A stretch of 61,471 nt of DNA from an uncultured Chloroflexota bacterium. GTDB lineage: Bacteria > Chloroflexota > Anaerolineae > Anaerolineales > Villigracilaceae. The stretch covers positions 1-61,471 of the forward strand of contig CAIWRB010000159.1 of assembly GCA_903914955.1 (NCBI GenBank), read 5' to 3'. Under the pieces are notes generated by a model. That model saw only the letters and a list, made by a program, of their open reading frames with translations, ran no database searches and was not told the DNA's origin. A program made the position numbers and the translations under genes. Shown one piece after another: positions 12,446 to 23,604 of the stretch (the first letter of the stretch is position 1; each line of letters begins with the position of its first letter).

Positions 12446-12964
12446 TCAGGCCTGCCCGCTCAATTTTTTGACCTGACTTATCAGTGCATGCCAGATGGGG
12501 CAGCGATCATAAATAGCACTGAACATGAGCATGCCGCCGAGCAGGCGTAAAAGCCAATTTGCTTGCGTTAGCCACCCAATCAGAACAATGGCAGTGCCCG
12601 CCCCCACACGGATAAAACGATCCATGCTCGAAAGACCTGCTGGAGCTGGGTCGTATCCACTAGCAAGTGTTTCGAAAAGCGACTGCAGTATACCGGCAGG
12701 TTTTGCTCCTACCTGTCGCAGAGTCTCTTTTCCATCTCGATAGACGATCAGGGTAGGGATGCCGTAGACTTTGAGTTCGCGCAGCAAGTCCTGATTCTCA
12801 TCAGCATTAATCTGCCAAAGGTAAACGCGTCCGTTATATTTCAATGCCAGTTTTTCCAAAATCGGTTTGACCATTTTGCAAGGTCCACACCAGGGGGCCC
12901 AAAGATCAACCACTACAGGATTGGGATTTTGTTTGAGTTTTTCAAAAAATTCTTTAGAGTTCAT
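12446..12964 (-). CDS. Thioredoxin fused to DUF2892 membrane domain
   Basis: A 172-residue protein. Residues 1-100 are a thioredoxin domain with the active site WCGPCK (Cys26, Cys29) and the cis-Pro segment YGIPTLIVY; residues 112-165 form a DUF2892-type hairpin of two membrane helices (DRFIRVGAGTAIVLIGWL; LLGGMLMFSAIYDRCPIW). It would place a cytoplasmic thiol reductant at the membrane. The partner gene at 13017 is a free-standing DUF2892 protein. The ATG has no ribosome binding site and follows a strong hairpin by only about 9 bases, so translation must start in an unusual way. An ECF-type promoter precedes the pair. Confidence 0.85.
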   Translation of the reverse strand: MNSKEFFEKLKQNPNPVVVDLWAPWCGPCKMVKPILEKLALKYNGRVYLWQINADENQDLLRELKVYGIPTLIVYRDGKETLRQVGAKPAGILQSLFETLASGYDPAPAGLSSMDRFIRVGAGTAIVLIGWLTQANWLLRLLGGMLMFSAIYDRCPIWHALISQVKKLSGQA

Positions 12965-13016: not shown

Positions 13017-13217
13017 TTATTTCTTGAGGCTACTGAGTTTAAACAGGGCATACAGCGGACAGAAACCGACAGCGCTTGTCAGAAGCATTACTACTCCGAG
13101 CACATCTGCCACAACCGCCAGCCCGCCGCTGAGTACGCCACCAAATCCCAGATAAAGTAACACGATGCCAGCAACAACTCGGAGGATACGGTCTATGTTC
13201 GATTCGTTCAATTTCAT
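13017..13217 (-). CDS. DUF2892 (YgaP-like) small membrane protein
   Basis: A 66-residue membrane protein consisting only of a DUF2892 domain: N-terminal NIDRILRVVAGIVLLYLGF, a Gly-rich turn, a second helix VVADVLGVVMLLTSAVGF, and the family's CPLYALF end. Its function is not defined, but this domain is often linked to rhodanese or thioredoxin proteins. CAGGAGACTAAA precedes the ATG. A well-formed ECF-type promoter lies 46 bases upstream. The gene after it encodes thioredoxin fused to the same domain, so the two probably pair in the membrane. Confidence 0.85.
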   Translation of the reverse strand: MKLNESNIDRILRVVAGIVLLYLGFGGVLSGGLAVVADVLGVVMLLTSAVGFCPLYALFKLSSLKK

Positions 13218-13262: not shown

Positions 13263-13291
13263 TTTGATGCAGGTCTCCCAAAAAAGTTACA
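13263..13291 (-). promoter_or_regulatory. ECF-type promoter for the DUF2892-thioredoxin unit
   Basis: Minus strand TGTAACTTTT (13291-13282) and GCATCAAA (13270-13263), with 16 bases between the AAC and the CATC. The same two blocks at the same distance stand before the OsmC gene and the double-thioredoxin gene. AAC-centred upstream boxes are usual for ECF sigma factors. Confidence 0.75.
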
Positions 13292-13321: not shown

Positions 13322-14278
13322 TTAGGGCTTTCCGCCTTGACCACCAGCGCCAGAAGCAGAGCCATTCCCATTTACGCTTCCACCAGAGTTACCATTCTCG
13401 TAGTTATTTTGATTGGTTCCAGGATCTTGCGGCATTGGTGTACCAGCAAGTGGATTGATATTTCCGTTTTGTTGACCTGTCCCATCCAGCGCAGGTGTGT
13501 AGGATGATGTTTGCGGTGTAACGGGGCTGTCAGTTGCCAATGGAGTCTGTGTGGTACGGATTTGGTTCTGACTCTGGTTTTGATTCTGTTCGCGGGATGT
13601 CTCTGGATCAGCAAGGTTGCTTTCAATCTGTCCCAATTGAGTATGCAGCATATCACGTGTTTGTTGCAAAATTGGCTCACACTCCGTACAGGATCCAGAT
13701 TGAAGTTGGGTCATCGACTGTTCCTGTGTTTGCAGCTGCTTTCGGATTTGTTCAATCGCGGCGCTCATTGAAACATCATCAAGAGTTGTAGCTAATTGCA
13801 GTGCCTGCTGAATTCTGTCCTGCGTTCGAATGGATGATTCGGCGGGCGGTGTGATTCCTGCAAGGGTCAGTACGGCCATCTCTTCAGTGCGATTCTGTAC
13901 CTGATCCATTAGCAATTCAATTTTCATATTGGGGTCAGATGCGAGCCAGACCCTTACATCTTCGCTCATCAGTTTGATCTGATAAAGCGGTTGGGTGGGA
14001 AGGTCATCCTGCGCAGCGGAAACAGTGGCGCTTCCTCCGAATAGCAGGCCAAGTACAACAAGGACAGACATAATTAGATTCATAGCAAATTTCTCCTTTT
14101 GTTGAAAGATTGTCATCCACCAGTTGTGACGCCGTTCTTCGCTTGCAGATACGGCCTGTGCCAGGAATCTGCCTCTGGCGCGGGTAGCAGCTTGAGGGTC
14201 ACGCGCAGAAGCGGGTTTGAGTTCGTCCAGTAAAGCCGCGAGACGAGGGTCAATTTTTTCATCATTAGTCATGTTCAT
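13322..14278 (-). CDS. DUF5667-like membrane protein, probable anti-sigma factor
   Basis: A 318-residue protein encoded directly after an ECF sigma gene, with an ATGA overlap. Its first 60 residues are cytoplasmic and resemble a sigma-binding segment (DPRLAALLDELKPASARDP). One membrane helix follows (about residues 66-90, IMSVLVVLGLLFGGSATVS). The outer part is a DUF5667-like helical domain (LPTQPLYQIKLMSEDVRVWL is diagnostic) with a CTEC pair, then a low-complexity tail rich in Gln, Asn, Thr and Gly. Role as anti-sigma factor is inferred from position and topology. Confidence 0.75.
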   Translation of the reverse strand: MNMTNDEKIDPRLAALLDELKPASARDPQAATRARGRFLAQAVSASEERRHNWWMTIFQQKEKFAMNLIMSVLVVLGLLFGGSATVSAAQDDLPTQPLYQIKLMSEDVRVWLASDPNMKIELLMDQVQNRTEEMAVLTLAGITPPAESSIRTQDRIQQALQLATTLDDVSMSAAIEQIRKQLQTQEQSMTQLQSGSCTECEPILQQTRDMLHTQLGQIESNLADPETSREQNQNQSQNQIRTTQTPLATDSPVTPQTSSYTPALDGTGQQNGNINPLAGTPMPQDPGTNQNNYENGNSGGSVNGNGSASGAGGQGGKP

Positions 14279-14805
14279 ACCTCATCATCCAAAAGAATTT
14301 TTTGCAAGTGTGCCAGCGCGCGATGTTGAAGGGATTTGATTGCTCCAACAGGTTTGTTCAGTGCGCGCGCAATCTCTTCGTTCTCCCAGCCTTCGAGAAA
14401 TTTGAGGGCGATCACTTGTCCCTGATCCACGGTTAATTCCAGCAATGCGCCGCGCACGTGATGTTGACGGATATTCAGGCAGGCATTTTCTTCGGTATTT
14501 TGACAATCAGGTGTGTCATCGTCGAGGATACTTTCAGGTGATTCATGCCGATAATGATCCACGATGAAGTTGTGCGCGGTGCGGAAGAGATAGGCTTGCA
14601 GATAATCACGCGGTCCTCTGCCTTTTTGTAATGCTTGAAGAAAACGACTGAATGTTTCAGCGACGCAATCTTCTGCTGTGCAGGCATCGCCAAGCAATCG
14701 AACGGCGTAACGATATAAGCGCGGGCTGTACAGATCGTAAATCTCTCCAAGAGCGCGTGTATCAAGTTTTTGTGCCTGTGCTAACAAATCTGGTTTTGGA
14801 ATCAC
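14275..14805 (-). CDS. ECF RNA polymerase sigma factor
   Basis: A 176-residue sigma-70-family factor. Region 2 spans residues 15-85 (LGEIYDLYSPRLYRYAVRLL, AEDCVAETFSRFL, AYLFRTAHNFIVDHYR) and region 4 residues 115-172 (ALLELTVDQGQVIALKFLEG, ENEEIARALNKPVGAIKSLQ). Start is GTG at 14805 with only a weak ribosome binding site. It is cotranscribed with the DUF5667-like protein that follows. Which of the two ECF factors in this window reads the TGTAAC promoters is not settled by sequence, but the one at 21328 sits among them. Confidence 0.92.
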   Translation of the reverse strand: MIPKPDLLAQAQKLDTRALGEIYDLYSPRLYRYAVRLLGDACTAEDCVAETFSRFLQALQKGRGPRDYLQAYLFRTAHNFIVDHYRHESPESILDDDTPDCQNTEENACLNIRQHHVRGALLELTVDQGQVIALKFLEGWENEEIARALNKPVGAIKSLQHRALAHLQKILLDDEV

Positions 14806-18290: not shown

Positions 18291-19502
18291 ATGAAACTTA
18301 GAAAAATATTTCGCACAGCCTGGGAAGGCTTAATGCTCAACAAAGTCCGCTCGTTTCTGACGACGCTGGGCGTCATCATTGGCGTGGCTTCGGTCATCGT
18401 CATGCTCGCAGTCAGTGCCGGCGCCGAGGCTTCTATTGCTGAACAGATCAACGCGCTGGGCGCAAACTTGATCATCGTCTCGCCGATGCGCGGCATCCCT
18501 GGCGCTGGACGCACCCTGCTTATTGACGACGCAAATGCGATTGCAGAGCAGGTGGTCGGGATATCCGGGATCTCCGCCGAACAATCGCCCGCCGCCCAAA
18601 ACGTCCGCGCAGGGGGCGTGACTCTCGAATCCATTCCTGTTATCGGAACCACGGCAGATTTTTCATCTGTGCGCGATTACGCAGTTGCTGAAGGTCGCTA
18701 CTTCACCGCGGATGAAGATGACCGAAAGGCAAAAGTTGTTATTCTCGGCTCAGGTATTGCCACAGATCTATTCGGCACAGAAAGCGGCATTGGGCAAACC
18801 ATCACCGTTGACTCAACCAAGCTGACAGTGATCGGTGTGATGGAAGCTAAAGGACTCGTTGCAGATGTTGATTACGATGGGCGGGTCTATCTGCCGATCA
18901 ATCTCGTTTTCCAAAAATTTATGACTGCCTCCCCGATGGGTACAGACGCCGTCCGCACGATCTACCTCAAATCAGAGAGTCAGGAACAGATCGACAGCGT
19001 CATCGCTCAGACAACTGCAATCCTTGCAGTGCGTCACGACGTTGATCCCGCCAAACCCGATTTCACCGTGCAAACTCAACAAGACATTATCGCCACACAA
19101 GAAGCCACCACTGCCGCCTTTCGTGATCTGCTGGCTTGGGTCGCGGGCATCTCACTACTCGTCGGCGGCATTGGTATCATGAACATCATGCTGGTCAGTG
19201 TCACCGAACGCACACGTGAGATCGGTCTGCGACAGGCACTCGGTGCGCGCGCCTCCACCGTGCTCATGCAATTCCTGATCGAAGCCATCATTCTCAGTCT
19301 GGCGGGCGGATTGGTCGGCGTCATCCTCGGCGTCGGCGGTTCATATCTCTTCGGCACACTCGGCACCATGCGCACCGAGATCGTCCCCATGTCCATTCCG
19401 CTTGCATTCGGCGCGGCAACCATCGTCGGCATTTTCTTTGGCTACTATCCCGCCACACAAGCCGCGAAACTTGACCCCATCGAAGCCCTGCGGCGCGAAT
19501 AA
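18291..19502 (+). CDS. MacB-like FtsX-family permease
   Basis: A 403-residue permease with the four-helix MacB topology: helix 1 near residues 20-45 (VRSFLTTLGVIIGVASVIVM), a large outer domain (residues 46-270), and three C-terminal helices (WVAGISLLVGGIGIMNIMLV; MQFLIEAIILSLAGGLVGVI; the last near 365-385), ending with the conserved AAKLDPIEALRRE. The start at 18291 follows AAAAGGACAACC; a longer frame overlaps the ATPase gene and is not used. Together with the adaptor and ATPase it forms an exporter of unknown substrate. Confidence 0.9.
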   Translation: MKLRKIFRTAWEGLMLNKVRSFLTTLGVIIGVASVIVMLAVSAGAEASIAEQINALGANLIIVSPMRGIPGAGRTLLIDDANAIAEQVVGISGISAEQSPAAQNVRAGGVTLESIPVIGTTADFSSVRDYAVAEGRYFTADEDDRKAKVVILGSGIATDLFGTESGIGQTITVDSTKLTVIGVMEAKGLVADVDYDGRVYLPINLVFQKFMTASPMGTDAVRTIYLKSESQEQIDSVIAQTTAILAVRHDVDPAKPDFTVQTQQDIIATQEATTAAFRDLLAWVAGISLLVGGIGIMNIMLVSVTERTREIGLRQALGARASTVLMQFLIEAIILSLAGGLVGVILGVGGSYLFGTLGTMRTEIVPMSIPLAFGAATIVGIFFGYYPATQAAKLDPIEALRRE

Positions 19503-19539
19503 TTTCTTAAACAAAACTTCAACCCAAAAGGATTTCATA

Positions 19540-20112
19540 ATGAAGAAGATTTTTCTCCCCCTCGTTTTTCTCTTCGCACTTTTGCTCGCCTCCTGCTCAC
19601 CGACGGTTGCTTCCGCTCCGACAACAGGCGGCGACACCTATGTCAGCCAGAACCTGCCAGTTGATTACGAAGGCGCGCTGGCTGTCCGCAATCAACTGGC
19701 ACTCGGAACCCTCGAACTGAACCAGACAGATTCAGCCATCAGCACAGAACAAGCGCAGACTCTTCTTCCACTTTGGCAGGCGCTTCGCAGCACCCAGCAA
19801 GCGGGAGGAACAGCCCAAGAAGAAGTCAGCGCCTTATTGACTCAGATCGAAGCCGCCATGAAACCTGAACAATTGAAGTCCATTGCAGGCATGAAGTTGA
19901 CCTTTTCCAACATGCAGGAATGGGCAACTGCCAACGGCATTACCATGAGCAGCAGCGGTACACCTGGACAGGGCAGCGGCATGTCACCTGAAGCACGCGC
20001 CACCAAACAAGCCGCCGAAGGTGTTACTTCCAGCAGCGGTGGAAGTGGAAGCAAACTTCCCACCGCATTAATGGACGCTGTTATCGCTTCATTGGAAGCA
20101 CAGATTAAATAA
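19540..20112 (+). CDS. Lipoprotein A, linked to MacAB-like exporter
   Basis: A 190-residue lipoprotein with signal peptide and lipobox LLASCSPT. After it come a Pro/Val segment, a helical domain (VRNQLALGTLELNQ, AQTLLPLWQALRS, EVSALLTQIEAAMKPEQL, IAGMKLTFSNMQEW) and a Ser/Gly-rich linker before a short C-terminal helix (LMDAVIASLEAQI). The core resembles that of the next gene, so the two are tandem paralogues. I do not know a named family; I recall similar proteins beside MacB genes in Chloroflexota. AAAGGATTTCATA precedes the ATG. Confidence 0.75.
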   Translation: MKKIFLPLVFLFALLLASCSPTVASAPTTGGDTYVSQNLPVDYEGALAVRNQLALGTLELNQTDSAISTEQAQTLLPLWQALRSTQQAGGTAQEEVSALLTQIEAAMKPEQLKSIAGMKLTFSNMQEWATANGITMSSSGTPGQGSGMSPEARATKQAAEGVTSSSGGSGSKLPTALMDAVIASLEAQIK

Positions 20113-20134
20113 AGATAAAACTTTGGAGAACCCC

Positions 20135-20728
20135 ATGAAAAAAAGCATCTTTCGTTTTGCACTCTTGACTCTGCTCGCCGTCAGCCTTGTCTACGCCTGC
20201 GCGCCGGCAGCAGAAATTGAAACCGCCCCCACTTCGCTGGCATCCACTTATCTCAGCATCGAATATAGCGATGCGGCAAATGTCCGCAGTCAACTTGCGT
20301 ATGGGTCACTCAAACTTGCGGACTCGCCCAATACCATCACTCTCGAACAAGCCAAGACTATGATCCCGCTCTGGCAGGCAGTAATCAGCTTGAGCGGCGA
20401 CACGACTACCGCCACCGAAGAACTCACCGCGGTTCAGGATCAGATCACCGCCGCAATGACCGCAGATCAGTTACAGGCGATTGCTGAAATGAAAATCACG
20501 AACACGGGGCTGAATGAATTCTACGCCCAATATGGCATCACTTTGCCAACCCCAATCCCTGGAGTGACGAAAGTCCCAGGTTCGGGCAGCGGTAAGACCG
20601 AAGAAGAAAAAGCAGCTGCCCTGGCTACAAAAACAGCATTAGGCGAAACTACAGGCACGGGTCAAGCCGCCAAGACTTTGTTATTTGAAAAGACGATCGA
20701 ATATTTGACGGTTGTGTCAGGACAATAG
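20135..20728 (+). CDS. Lipoprotein B, paralogue of lipoprotein A
   Basis: A 197-residue lipoprotein (lipobox SLVYACAP) with the same layout as its upstream neighbour: VRSQLAYGSLKLAD, AKTMIPLWQAVISL, ELTAVQDQITAAMTADQLQA, IAEMKITNTGLNEF, a linker and a C-terminal helix (LLFEKTIEYL). Start at 20135 is set by GGAGAACCCC; a TTG four codons upstream is weaker. Pairs of alternating helices with acidic and amide residues could bind a ligand or sense folding outside the cell; this is a guess. It ends the exporter operon, followed by a terminator. Confidence 0.75.
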   Translation: MKKSIFRFALLTLLAVSLVYACAPAAEIETAPTSLASTYLSIEYSDAANVRSQLAYGSLKLADSPNTITLEQAKTMIPLWQAVISLSGDTTTATEELTAVQDQITAAMTADQLQAIAEMKITNTGLNEFYAQYGITLPTPIPGVTKVPGSGSGKTEEEKAAALATKTALGETTGTGQAAKTLLFEKTIEYLTVVSGQ

Positions 20729-20816: not shown

Positions 20817-20845
20817 TGTAACTTTTTCAGGATCAGTGCATCCAA
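20817..20845 (+). promoter_or_regulatory. ECF-type promoter for the OsmC gene
   Basis: TGTAACTTTT (20817-20826) and GCATCCAA (20838-20845), 16 bases between AAC and CATC, 31 bases before the ATG. Same blocks and spacing as at 22231 and, on the minus strand, at 13291. Confidence 0.75.
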
Positions 20846-20876
20846 TAATTATCTAAAAAACTAGGAGCATAAAAAC

Positions 20877-21272
20877 ATGGAAATGATCATAGACTTCCCC
20901 GGCGGATCCCGCGTAGACGCACATTTTGGCCCGCACACCGTCGCCACCGACCAACCCCCGCTAGCGAGCGCACCCACACCCTTTGCTGTATTTCTCGCAT
21001 CGATCGGCACCTGCGCAGGAATTTACGTGCTAGGTTTTTGTCAGCAGAGAAATCTGCCCACTGAAGGCATTCGCATTGTTCAAAGGATCCACAGCAGTCC
21101 AATGAGCGGCATGGTTGAAAAAATCGATCTGGAAATTCAGGTACCGGTGGACTTCCCCGAAAAATACCGCAAATCCTTGATCCACACTGCTGAATTATGT
21201 GCTGTGAAGAAGCATTTGGAAAATCCGCCGAAATTTGATGTCACAACAAAAGTTGTTGAACCTACCCATTAA
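20877..21272 (+). CDS. OsmC-family peroxiredoxin-like protein
   Basis: A 131-residue OsmC-fold protein. The two redox cysteines are in SIGTCAGIYVLGFCQQRNLP (first Cys of the pair, followed by a helix) and HTAELCAVKKHLENPP. The family reduces organic hydroperoxides using a Cys pair, with dihydrolipoyl or thioredoxin-type reductants. CTAGGAGCATAAAAAC precedes the ATG, and an ECF-type promoter lies close upstream, giving a leader of about 25 bases. The sigma/anti-sigma pair and two thioredoxin-fold genes that follow support a thiol-stress role. Confidence 0.88.
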   Translation: MEMIIDFPGGSRVDAHFGPHTVATDQPPLASAPTPFAVFLASIGTCAGIYVLGFCQQRNLPTEGIRIVQRIHSSPMSGMVEKIDLEIQVPVDFPEKYRKSLIHTAELCAVKKHLENPPKFDVTTKVVEPTH

Positions 21273-21327
21273 AGAATGACGGCCATCGTGTATACTAATC
21301 TAAATAATTCCAAGGATAAAGTAAACG

Positions 21328-21936
21328 ATGGTTGAATCAATCATTCAAGATATTTCAATTGAATCCCTGCGTAATGGAGATCGGGCGGAATTCGCCCAAC
21401 TGGTGGATGCTTATTCCGCACCGATCTACCGTTTGGGACTACGCATGCTTGGGAACGAACAGGATGCTGAAGATGTATTGCAAAATACATTTCTCAGCGC
21501 GCTGACGCACCTCCCCGCATTTGAGGGACGCTCCAGTGTTTTAACGTGGCTGTATCGCATTGCAGTCAATGAAGCTTTGATGATCCTGCGGCGCGGAAAA
21601 CCGGAAGTCAACATTGACGATACGGATTTGAGCGATGACAACGATCAGATATCTCCAACTCAATTTGTGGATTGGGGCGCGCTGCCCGAAGATGAACTGC
21701 TTTCCTCCGAAGGTAAACAGGCGCTTGATACTGCCATCCAGAATCTGCCTGAAAATTTACGAATGGTTTTCCTGTTGCGCGATATTCAAGACCTGTCCAT
21801 TAAGGACACGGCAGATACGCTCAACCTGACAGAGGCCAATGTTAAAGTGCGCCTTCTAAGAGCACGTTTATTGTTACGAGAACAACTATCTTATTATTAT
21901 GGTGAACGAATGATGAAGGAGAAATCAAATGGCTGA
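21328..21936 (+). CDS. ECF sigma factor, probable thiol-stress type
   Basis: A 202-residue sigma factor with region 2 in residues 20-90 (EFAQLVDAYSAPIYRLGLRM, DAEDVLQNTFLSAL, LTWLYRIAVNEALMILRR), an acidic linker (NIDDTDLSDDNDQISP) and region 4 in 125-195 (ALDTAIQNLPENLRMVFLLR, LNLTEANVKVRLLRARLLLR). The long acidic linker and general pattern suit ECF groups that pair with zinc anti-sigma factors. AAGGATAAAG precedes the ATG by a few bases. It overlaps its anti-sigma gene by 8 bases. The three TGTAAC promoters around it are its likely targets. Confidence 0.92.
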   Translation: MVESIIQDISIESLRNGDRAEFAQLVDAYSAPIYRLGLRMLGNEQDAEDVLQNTFLSALTHLPAFEGRSSVLTWLYRIAVNEALMILRRGKPEVNIDDTDLSDDNDQISPTQFVDWGALPEDELLSSEGKQALDTAIQNLPENLRMVFLLRDIQDLSIKDTADTLNLTEANVKVRLLRARLLLREQLSYYYGERMMKEKSNG

Positions 21937-22198
21937 ATCAACTCATGAGACCTGTGAAGGTTTGCTTGGCTCCCTATCCGATTACATTGACGGCGACTTG
22001 GGTGCGGAGTTGTGCCGTCAGATCGAAAAGCATATCGCGGAATGTGAAGACTGCCGCATCGTTGTGGATACGACCCGCAAGACGGTTGACCTCGTCCACG
22101 CTTCAAACGACCCTCAAACTGGTCTGCCAGACGATGTGCGGGATCGCCTATATAAGCGACTCAACCTCGACGATTACCTGAAGCCCTCAGCAAAATAA
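21929..22198 (+). CDS. RsrA-like zinc-binding anti-sigma factor
   Basis: An 89-residue soluble protein with a ZAS motif. Cys9, His35, Cys39 and Cys42 have the same mutual distances as the zinc ligands of the redox sensor RsrA as I remember them (C11, H37, C41, C44); Cys29 is extra. In RsrA, disulfide formation releases zinc and frees the sigma factor. There is no membrane helix, so it senses cytoplasmic conditions. The ATG, with GAAGGAGAAATCAA before it, lies inside the end of the sigma gene (8-base overlap), which gives coupled synthesis. Confidence 0.88.
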   Translation: MAESTHETCEGLLGSLSDYIDGDLGAELCRQIEKHIAECEDCRIVVDTTRKTVDLVHASNDPQTGLPDDVRDRLYKRLNLDDYLKPSAK

Positions 22199-22230
22199 AA
22201 TATCAACTTAATAAGGGGGGATTCGCAGTT

Positions 22231-22259
22231 TGTAACTTTTCCAGTTTACTTGCATCCAA
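22231..22259 (+). promoter_or_regulatory. ECF-type promoter for the double-thioredoxin gene
   Basis: TGTAACTTTT (22231-22240) and GCATCCAA (22252-22259), AAC to CATC distance 16 bases, 63 bases before the ATG. Nearly identical to the element before the OsmC gene. Confidence 0.75.
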
Positions 22260-22322: not shown

Positions 22323-22988
22323 ATGGAACAACTTCTCAGTGAACAATTAATTAGTCAGATCAGACAATCATTCGAGGAAATGAAGGAACCGGTGCAGATC
22401 CTGTTTTTTGGATCACAGGACAATTGCGAATACTGCGCCGACACACGCCAGCTTCTTGAAGAAGTTGCAGCGATCGATGAAAAAGTAAGTTTGAATATCT
22501 ACGATCTCAAAGATAATGCAGACATGGCTGTCAAATTCAACGTGGACAGAGTCCCTGCGATTGTGATCGCCGCTAAAGATGGGGATCAAATTACCAATTT
22601 AGGAATTCAATATTCAGGAATTCCCTCCGGGCATGAGTTCGGCACACTGATCAATGATATTGTGCTGGTTTCAGGCCGCGACTCGGGACTCAGCCTGGAA
22701 GTACGTGAATTCTTAAGGCACCTGACTCAGCCACTGCACTTACAGGTATTTGTAACCCCGACCTGCCCGCATTGTCCGCGGGCTGTATTGCTGGCGCATC
22801 AAATGGCGATGGAAAACCCGACCATGATCCGTGCGGAAGGAGTCGAAGCGACGGAGTTCCCTGAGTTGGCGAATCAGTTCAACGTGCGGGGCGTTCCCCA
22901 GACTGTCATCAACGCAGGTATGGGCACAGTCGTCGGATCAATGCCTGAGAAGAATCTACTGGCAGAAATCATGCGGGCAGTTAACTAA
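22323..22988 (+). CDS. PDO-like double-thioredoxin disulfide oxidoreductase
   Basis: A 221-residue protein made of two thioredoxin folds, as in the protein disulfide oxidoreductases of thermophiles and in glutaredoxin-like TIGR02187 proteins. The N-terminal unit has CEYC (Cys35, Cys38) and the cis-Pro stretch VDRVPAIVIA; the C-terminal unit has CPHC (Cys148, Cys151) and VRGVPQTVINAG. No signal peptide is present, so it acts in the cytoplasm in thiol-disulfide exchange. AATTAGGAGTACACAA precedes the ATG. It follows the sigma/anti-sigma pair but has its own ECF-type promoter. Confidence 0.88.
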   Translation: MEQLLSEQLISQIRQSFEEMKEPVQILFFGSQDNCEYCADTRQLLEEVAAIDEKVSLNIYDLKDNADMAVKFNVDRVPAIVIAAKDGDQITNLGIQYSGIPSGHEFGTLINDIVLVSGRDSGLSLEVREFLRHLTQPLHLQVFVTPTCPHCPRAVLLAHQMAMENPTMIRAEGVEATEFPELANQFNVRGVPQTVINAGMGTVVGSMPEKNLLAEIMRAVN

Positions 22989-23016: not shown

Positions 23017-23604
23017 ATGGCAAAGAATAATTATCGCCGCAAAAAAAACAAATACAACAATGGCATGAATTTCATCCTGGGCGTGGGGTTGGTTCTGATC
23101 GGTCTCGCATCTATTCTTATGTTGCAAGGCACAAAGAATTCATCGGCATCGCAGCCTGTTTCCAGATCAGTGACTCCAGTGGAAGTTAATTATCCCGCGC
23201 CGGAGCTTTCGCTCCAAAACATAAATGGACAAAGCGAGTCATTAACAGATTATCAAGATCAAGTTGTGCTGGTTAATAATTGGGCTACCTGGTGCCCGCC
23301 ATGCAAAGCGGAAATTCCAACCCTTGAAGCTTATTACAAAACGCATAAAGTGAATGGCTTTGTAATAGTGGGAGTCGAAGCCGGCGAATCCCAAAAGGAT
23401 GTTCTTAAATTTGTTCAAGAACACGATATGACCTATCCGGTTTGGTTTGATCTTAAGAACGCGGCAACGAATGCATTTCACAATGAAAACCTGCCGAGTT
23501 CTTATGTGATCGACCGCAAAGGTATTGTACGGCTGGCCTGGGTCGGCGAGATCAGTCAGGAAATGCTTGAGAAATACGTAACACCTTTATTAACGGAAAA
23601 CTAA
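23017..23604 (+). CDS. TlpA/ResA-like membrane-anchored thioredoxin
   Basis: A 195-residue protein with a basic N-terminus (NNYRRKKNKYNN), one membrane helix (residues 18-38) and an outer TlpA domain: LSLQNINGQSESLTDYQDQ, active site WATWCPPC (Cys93, Cys96), VGVEAGESQKDVLKFVQE and the cis-Pro segment LPSSYVIDRKG. Such proteins reduce extracytoplasmic disulfides, for instance in cytochrome maturation. It is 28 bases after the double-thioredoxin gene and probably read from the same ECF promoter. The ribosome binding site is weak. Confidence 0.88.
   Translation: MAKNNYRRKKNKYNNGMNFILGVGLVLIGLASILMLQGTKNSSASQPVSRSVTPVEVNYPAPELSLQNINGQSESLTDYQDQVVLVNNWATWCPPCKAEIPTLEAYYKTHKVNGFVIVGVEAGESQKDVLKFVQEHDMTYPVWFDLKNAATNAFHNENLPSSYVIDRKGIVRLAWVGEISQEMLEKYVTPLLTEN

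Follow-up and report, generated by a model that had tools for sequence, protein, structure and literature searches.

Genes of the Locus

The window, by which we mean the whole 61,471-nt stretch of DNA analysed here from an uncultured Chloroflexota bacterium, carries on its plus strand an OsmC-family protein gene (20877-21272; PF02566, 45.5 bits, cut-off 27.5) followed, after 55 nt, by the gene for the ECF sigma factor that we propose as the reader of the promoters described below (21328-21936; 202 aa, Sigma70_r2 and Sigma70_r4_2 domains). The end of the sigma gene is overlapped by a gene for a predicted zinc-binding anti-sigma factor of 89 aa (21929-22198; zf-HC2, 38.7 bits, cut-off 22.2). Downstream on the same strand are a protein disulfide oxidoreductase (PDO) gene with two thioredoxin folds (22323-22988; TIGR02187, 267.7 bits, cut-off 185) and a gene for a TlpA/ResA-like thiol-disulfide oxidoreductase (23017-23604; PF00578, 88.7 bits). 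The minus strand encodes a YgaP-like transmembrane (TM) protein of 66 aa (13017-13217; PF11127, 70.2 bits) and a thioredoxin fused to a YgaP-like TM domain (12446-12964; PF00085, 92 bits; PF11127, 37.8 bits). We take PF11127 to be the former DUF2892. An earlier, sequence-only reading of this DNA had placed an ECF sigma gene between two of three promoter sites, and the sigma and zf-HC2 anti-sigma genes were confirmed there. The double-thioredoxin gene of that reading does encode two thioredoxin folds, its identity being refined here to a PDO, and the thioredoxin-DUF2892 fusion was recovered as a thioredoxin joined to a YgaP-like TM domain.

Two other regions of the window were also noted. The minus-strand region 13322-14805 contains a second ECF sigma gene (14275-14805) and a DUF5667 protein gene whose start it overlaps; the sigma gene is nearest to the BldN-family model, at a score under that model's cut-off. 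At 19402-20728 on the plus strand, two neighbouring ORFs share a like layout and, by eye, a lipoprotein-like N-terminus, with no NCBIfam match.

A Repeated Promoter-Like Motif

The motif TGTAACTTTT-N11-GCATC is present in three exact copies in the window, in all of which AAC and CATC are 16 bases apart. The predicted ECF-type promoters lie at 20817-20842 on the plus strand, followed by CAA and 34 nt upstream of the osmC start; at 22231-22256 on the plus strand, again followed by CAA and 66 nt upstream of the PDO gene start; and at 13266-13291 on the minus strand, followed by AAA and 48 nt upstream of the YgaP-like TM gene start. The identical geometry that had been claimed for these sites is exact, the end positions given previously having included the trailing CAA, CAA and AAA. 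A looser core, TGTAAC-N15..17-CATC, occurred 3 times in the window compared to 0.19 expected from window shuffles, and none of 100 shuffles reached 3.

The genome to which the window belongs (4.40 Mb in 470 contigs, 98.7% complete) was scanned for the motif as had been suggested, and contained 4 exact matches, compared to 0.01 predicted from composition, located 34-98 nt before thiol genes. The fourth copy, at C205:15882-15907, precedes the thioredoxin reductase gene trxB by 98 nt. When up to 2 mismatches were allowed, 13 matches were found as against 4 for the reversed pattern; the two 1-mismatch matches fall within long open frames, and the seven 2-mismatch matches were viewed as flanking sequence only, without gene calls. 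A relaxed pattern added one further site only (L194, the fifth). No exact site of the sigma gene's own was found in the 55-nt gap between osmC and the sigma gene. The three units of the window do precede thiol genes, as had been proposed, but the putative regulon is not confined to three units: this genome adds trxB to it, and relatives add groES, rhodanese, zinc-ribbon, glutaredoxin and second OsmC genes.

The Sigma and Anti-Sigma Proteins

The sigma protein contains regions 2 and 4 only (Sigma70_r2, 58.5 bits; Sigma70_r4_2, 57.2 bits) and matched the sigma70-ECF model TIGR02937 at 102.6 bits (cut-off 42.9), and an anti-sigma match was present in all 30 of the family sigma loci that were read. 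By its regions and by its adjacent anti-sigma gene it is an ECF (group 4) sigma factor. Its closest solved structure was SigW (5wuq, 107.4 bits), while its score against the SigW model (133.5 bits) was under the cut-off of 243.1, and its score against TIGR02947, the model of actinobacterial SigH, was 70.1 bits, below the cut-off of 251.55.

Cys and His residues of the anti-sigma protein were conserved. In an alignment covering 30 of the 65 sigma-bearing family genomes, C9, C29, H35, C39 and C42 were present in 30 of 30 loci, our own included, and C9, H35, C39 and C42 form the zinc anti-sigma (ZAS) pattern, H-x3-C-x2-C with an N-terminal Cys 26 residues before the His. In a wider alignment (n=32), H35, C39 and C42 were invariant, and the N-terminal Cys was not at the C9 position in the Neomarinimicrobiota group. 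The relevant part of a study of RsrA lists Cys11, His37, Cys41 (Ser in the structure) and Cys44 as zinc ligands, with Cys11-Cys44 as the trigger disulfide (PMC4960319); the spacing of C9, H35, C39 and C42 is the same as that of these ligands. The description of the partner as RsrA-like is therefore apt for its Cys/His spacing but not for its score against the RsrA model TIGR03988, which was 36.2 bits with a cut-off of 62.5. The AlphaFold model of the anti-sigma protein was of modest quality, with a mean pLDDT of 76.2 and a pTM of 0.40, and its only Foldseek match was a weak one to RsiW (E 1.3; Z 4.1, rmsd 4.0 over 56 residues); no weight attaches to the lack of further fold matches. Comparison of the protein with solved structures gave nothing significant, the best E value being 0.12.

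Distribution of the Motif among Related Genomes

Genomes were regarded as sigma-bearing when they contained a match to the sigma protein at E <= 1e-30, which was the case for 65 of 100 family genomes, including our own. The pattern with one mismatch allowed gave 153 sites in the 64 other sigma-bearing family genomes, compared to 6 for reversed-pattern controls, and 10 sites in the 35 sigma-less family genomes, compared to 2 for controls. The association of motif sites with sigma presence among family genomes had a Mann-Whitney probability of 6e-12, uncorrected for phylogeny. The co-occurrence of motif and sigma gene is phylogenetically clustered, and we count it against our preferred explanation that such p-values ignore this clustering. 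Within the genus, 64 matches were found in 19 sigma-bearing genomes (reversed control 3) and 21 in 21 sigma-less genomes (control 1); among genus genomes at least 90% complete, the counts were 33 matches in 10 sigma-bearing versus 8 in 15 sigma-less genomes. In the class beyond the family, where a match at E <= 1e-40 was required for a genome to be called sigma-bearing, the strict motif gave 37 matches in 63 sigma-bearing genomes versus 8 controls, and 22 matches in 126 sigma-less genomes versus 13 controls. The strict motif is weaker outside the family than within it.

The spacer was sharply defined. With exact blocks and the gap left free between 8 and 14, 36 of 47 sites fell at N11, 7 at 12, 2 at 8, and 1 each at 10 and 14, with 4 reversed-control matches in total. 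In a logo built from 124 of the 133 sites assigned in sigma-bearing genomes, A had a frequency of 0.80 at position 28 and 0.93 at position 29. Because these two positions are mostly A and were not specified by the query, we extend the -10 block to GCATCnAA; position 24 was A in 124 of 124 sites, a base that was fixed by the query with one mismatch allowed overall. The scan of related genomes that had been suggested as a check supports the proposal of a thiol regulon: across the family the motif recurs before genes of thiol and sulfur metabolism, it goes together with the sigma gene, and its spacer is sharp.

Genes Downstream of the Motif

We read 156 sites, consisting of 150 listed family matches and 6 from our own genome (the listed matches did not include 19 from the same genus, among them the 6 of our own). 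At 137 of the 156 sites a reference family followed on the same strand at a distance of no more than 600 nt, compared to 14 for the divergent direction. The 19 sites with no reference family comprised 15 of the 148 in sigma-bearing genomes and 4 of the 8 in sigma-less genomes. Since the reference families were drawn from the matches themselves, only recurring families count, and those seen downstream once or twice carry no weight as proof. Assignment was by tblastn and took the best-scoring family within 600 nt, which is not always the first gene. The recurrent targets, counted by genome, were OsmC (21), sigma (15), GroES (15), TrxB (14), PDO (14) and an FmdB-type zinc ribbon (13), followed by rhodanese (8), a second OsmC (7), thioredoxins (5 and 5) and the YgaP-like TM protein (4). 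A sixteenth site at a sigma-type gene precedes a different ECF gene. A separate check of genus sites outside the reference set covered 30 sites in 29 loci, from 85 genus matches other than our own. Here a reference family was matched at 18 of 20 sites in sigma-bearing genomes, two of these 18 being TauE genes with an implied start upstream of the site, and at 7 of 10 sites in sigma-less genomes, five of the seven being trxB.

The motif before the sigma gene ends 1-6 nt from the start codon in 15 family genomes, and 2 nt from it in 10 of the 15 (GCATCTA-ATG; for example, L051, L066 and L179). The start codon sits at the expected transcription start, suggesting that the sigma mRNA may be leaderless or that translation may begin at a downstream start. 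At 8 of 13 trxB sites and 7 of 15 groES sites, GCATC runs into TGATAnAAT, which resembles a sigma-A extended -10, with at most 1 mismatch (for example, L004, L058 and L062); this fusion was absent, at the same tolerance, from the other 120 sites in sigma-bearing genomes. A zinc-ribbon protein of about 64 aa is encoded at L085 and L092, and at L297, L299-L303, L305, L307-L310 and L312, and in the L297-L312 group its gene is placed between the anti-sigma gene and the next thiol genes. One copy of this protein was scanned against Pfam and gave no match.

Sites in Genomes Lacking the Sigma Factor

The trxB sites were surveyed in 30 of the 38 genus genomes that contain trxB. Of 15 sigma-less genomes, 11 had a site with no more than 2 mismatches, compared to 14 of 15 sigma-bearing genomes, and five sites were perfect in each class. 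Four of the sigma-less genomes with a perfect motif at trxB (G121, G122, G124 and G125, all of the same genus) are 95-98% complete. Three other trxB sites in sigma-less genomes had a damaged TGTAAC (GTTAAC in one, GGCAAC in two) and an intact GCATC; sites in sigma-bearing genomes vary too. Six of the 8 matches in sigma-less genus genomes at least 90% complete were looked at, and of the 8, 5 were at trxB and 1 had no known target. Sites at regulon-type genes in sigma-less genomes further included OsmC in G116 (89% complete), the zinc ribbon in G110 (71%) and G026 (93%), the zinc ribbon and a metallo-beta-lactamase (MBL)-rhodanese in G032 (65%), and trxB in G056 (66%). The sigma-less genomes contained distant ECF paralogs only, at E 4e-25 or weaker.

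The trxB sites in sigma-less genomes rule out a strict one-to-one pairing of sigma factor and motif, and we conclude that the link between the two is strong but not exclusive. The proposal that ECF promoters define a thiol regulon is accordingly retained in part: the motif, its spacer, its thiol targets and its tracking of the sigma gene are consistent with it, but exclusivity is not, given that 5 of 15 sigma-less genus genomes have a perfect trxB site. The trxB site is likely kept in these genomes because its GCATC runs into the sigma-A-like extended -10. Sigma-less members of the genus, in which the trxB site may be intact or degraded to varying extents, provide a natural experiment in regulon loss.

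Relatives within and beyond the Chloroflexota

The closest named record to the sigma protein, at 96% identity, is from an uncultured Chloroflexi MAG. A scan of named genomes found relatives in Anaerolineae, one of them the cultured Flexilinea flocculi, and also, at 41-47% identity, in Candidatus Neomarinimicrobiota. The gene order osmC-sigma-antisigma-PDO-tlpA is shared by most close relatives, whereas most of the more divergent Chloroflexota have sigma, anti-sigma and a small zinc ribbon, with or without PDO, and then a second OsmC. The Neomarinimicrobiota group that we examined consists of 8 loci (60 kb), from seven Neomarinimicrobiota records and one other bacterium, and 4 of the 8 have the order PDO-sigma-antisigma-OsmC.

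TGTAAC-N16-YATCTAA was found beside the sigma relatives in Neomarinimicrobiota. In the loci of the Neomarinimicrobiota group, the pattern TGTAAC-Nx-[CT]ATCnAA gave 5 sites at x=16, 1 at 17 and 0 at 13-15 and 18-20, all six upstream of PDO or sigma, and no site in 2 of the 8 loci; a similar core in 16 divergent Chloroflexota loci gave 11 sites at N16, 4 at N17 and 0 elsewhere in the range 13-20. The spacer patterns for both sets were framed after those loci had been viewed.

Comparison with Known Systems

Control of thiol stress by an ECF sigma factor and a zinc anti-sigma factor is best known from Actinobacteria, where SigH belongs to the group named ECF12. Our locus resembles SigR/RsrA of Streptomyces and SigH/RshA of Mycobacterium and Corynebacterium in that an ECF sigma gene lies beside a gene for a small zinc anti-sigma protein with the same Cys/His/Cys/Cys spacing, and in that thioredoxin-system genes and the sigma gene itself are among the targets. 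The promoter differs, however, being TGTAAC-N16-CATC here and GGAAYR-N17-GTT for SigR/SigH in the section of PMC4803200 that describes it, and the earlier remark that the -10-like block is unlike the SigR element is upheld. Because both proteins score below the cut-offs of the respective models and the promoter is different, we reject membership of SigR/RsrA (ECF12); AS12 anti-sigma factors are described, in the portion of PMC7406223 that deals with them, as all actinobacterial.

SigW/RsiW of B. subtilis provides the closest solved structure for the sigma protein and the sole, weak Foldseek match for the anti-sigma protein, but our sigma factor is under the SigW cut-off and its targets are thiol genes, whereas, according to the abstract of PMC5358783, SigW is located at the membrane and responds to signals from outside the cytoplasm. 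With regard to the promoter, the -35 element of B. subtilis SigX is also TGTAAC with a T-tract. ECF16 in Brucella likewise has TGTAAC followed by a T-tract as its -35 element, and BcrS is linked there to the response to HOCl (PMC8315932, in part); this likeness is one of promoter and not of sigma sequence, and the -10 element is CGAA at N17 there and CATCnAA at N16 here. The combination of AAC at -35 and CGT at -10 is given as the hallmark of the first-studied ECFs in the relevant lines of PMC8103513, and describes an early ECF subset, not the family as a whole. Our sites have the AAC and, in place of CGT, a CATC. The suggestion of an undescribed ECF promoter specificity needs to be narrowed accordingly, since a TGTAAC -35 is already known from ECF16 (PMC8315932, in part) and the distinctive element is the CATCnAA -10, as set against the CGT hallmark (PMC8103513, in part). 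Literature searches of open-licence PMC articles on Chloroflexota and Neomarinimicrobiota ECF factors, SigR/RsrA and TGTAAC themes gave no paper on the system among the titles listed.

A Putative Thiol-Stress Regulon

The motif, its spacing and targets, its co-occurrence with the sigma gene, and the conserved Cys and His residues of the anti-sigma protein suggest that TGTAACTTTT-N11-GCATCnAA is probably a promoter, with the ECF sigma factor encoded at 21328-21936 as its reader, within a redox regulon that includes the zinc anti-sigma factor. The best reading of these sequence data is that of an ECF/zinc-anti-sigma thiol-stress regulon that may be functionally like SigR/RsrA and may form a lineage of its own, whose -10 is CATCnAA. 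That the motif is active as a promoter, that this sigma factor is paired with it, how the genes are grouped into operons, that release is redox-driven and what the signal is are all inferred, and on this footing we postulate the following course of events. Under reducing conditions, the 89-aa zinc anti-sigma protein would hold the sigma factor. Thiol oxidation, or possibly persulfide stress, could then produce a disulfide of the Cys9-Cys42 type, expelling the zinc and freeing the sigma factor, which together with RNA polymerase would transcribe osmC, sigma and anti-sigma in a positive feedback, and would also activate the PDO-tlpA unit, the genes for the YgaP-like TM protein and the thioredoxin-TM fusion, and, on a different contig, trxB. 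Once restored, the thioredoxin system would re-reduce the anti-sigma protein, and the response would end. Weighing against this reading are the sites kept in sigma-less genomes, the weaker motif outside the family, the lack of a recognisable site before the sigma gene of Flexilinea flocculi, the two Neomarinimicrobiota-group loci with no site, and the 15 sites of sigma-bearing genomes to which no target was assigned.

The sites could instead be ECF promoters read by another or an additional ECF sigma factor, with the neighbouring sigma gene merely co-inherited. The five sigma-less genus genomes with perfect trxB sites are consistent with this, and carry 5-10 other ECF-like matches (E <= 1e-10). 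We nevertheless regard it as unlikely, because the matches in sigma-less genus genomes at least 90% complete are mainly at trxB, whereas sigma-bearing genomes have many targets; because the motif stands at the sigma gene itself in the 15 family genomes mentioned above and, in a second phylum, beside sigma genes as well; and because the fusion of the trxB site to TGATAnAAT could preserve part of that site without the ECF factor. It seems very improbable that the motif serves a DNA-binding regulator as its operator and is not a promoter: genome data alone cannot reveal transcription starts, but the two blocks are unlike and non-palindromic, their spacer is fixed at an ECF length, AAC at -35 is an ECF hallmark (PMC8103513, in part), and the reference genes are far more often downstream on the same strand than divergent, often 30-140 nt from the start. 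Coincidental repetition is a negligible explanation; T-rich -35 flanks are common, but chance is refuted by the shuffle, composition and reversed-pattern controls and by the conserved columns outside the query.

A different question is what the system responds to, and a load of sulfide or persulfide, in place of disulfide stress as such, is a conceivable if rather doubtful signal. Downstream rhodaneses (9 sites), MBL-rhodaneses (2), TauE exporters (2) and YgaP-like TM proteins (4), together with one pyridine-nucleotide-disulfide oxidoreductase that we judged to be sulfide-quinone-reductase-like, point in this direction, on the basis of functions that, beyond the Pfam domains, we infer. On the other hand, trxB, PDO, OsmC and groES are commoner targets, and the Cys/His spacing of the anti-sigma protein matches that of the disulfide-triggered RsrA.

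More tentatively, and with the balance slightly against it as a whole, we can conceive of a distinct redox ECF family across Chloroflexota and Neomarinimicrobiota. It would have a cassette of sigma, zinc anti-sigma, PDO and OsmC genes, its own promoter class (TGTAAC-N16-CATCnAA), and a role in repair of both thiols and sulfane sulfur. Promoters at trxB and groES would be dual, the -10 being fused to a sigma-A extended -10, and the -10 of the sigma gene's own promoter would abut the start codon, implying a leaderless or shortened sigma factor when induced. Apart from this wider view, the probably separate ECF lineage described here, from mostly uncultured Chloroflexota and with relatives in a second phylum, has a target set equivalent to that of the actinobacterial systems and the same Cys/His spacing with a different promoter, and the analysis yields a concrete candidate regulon and promoter with predicted start sites. 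A cultured relative in which the regulon could be tested is Flexilinea flocculi, which has a sigma/anti-sigma pair; no recognisable site precedes its sigma gene, and a site with one mismatch lies 5' of a pair of trxB and thioredoxin genes.
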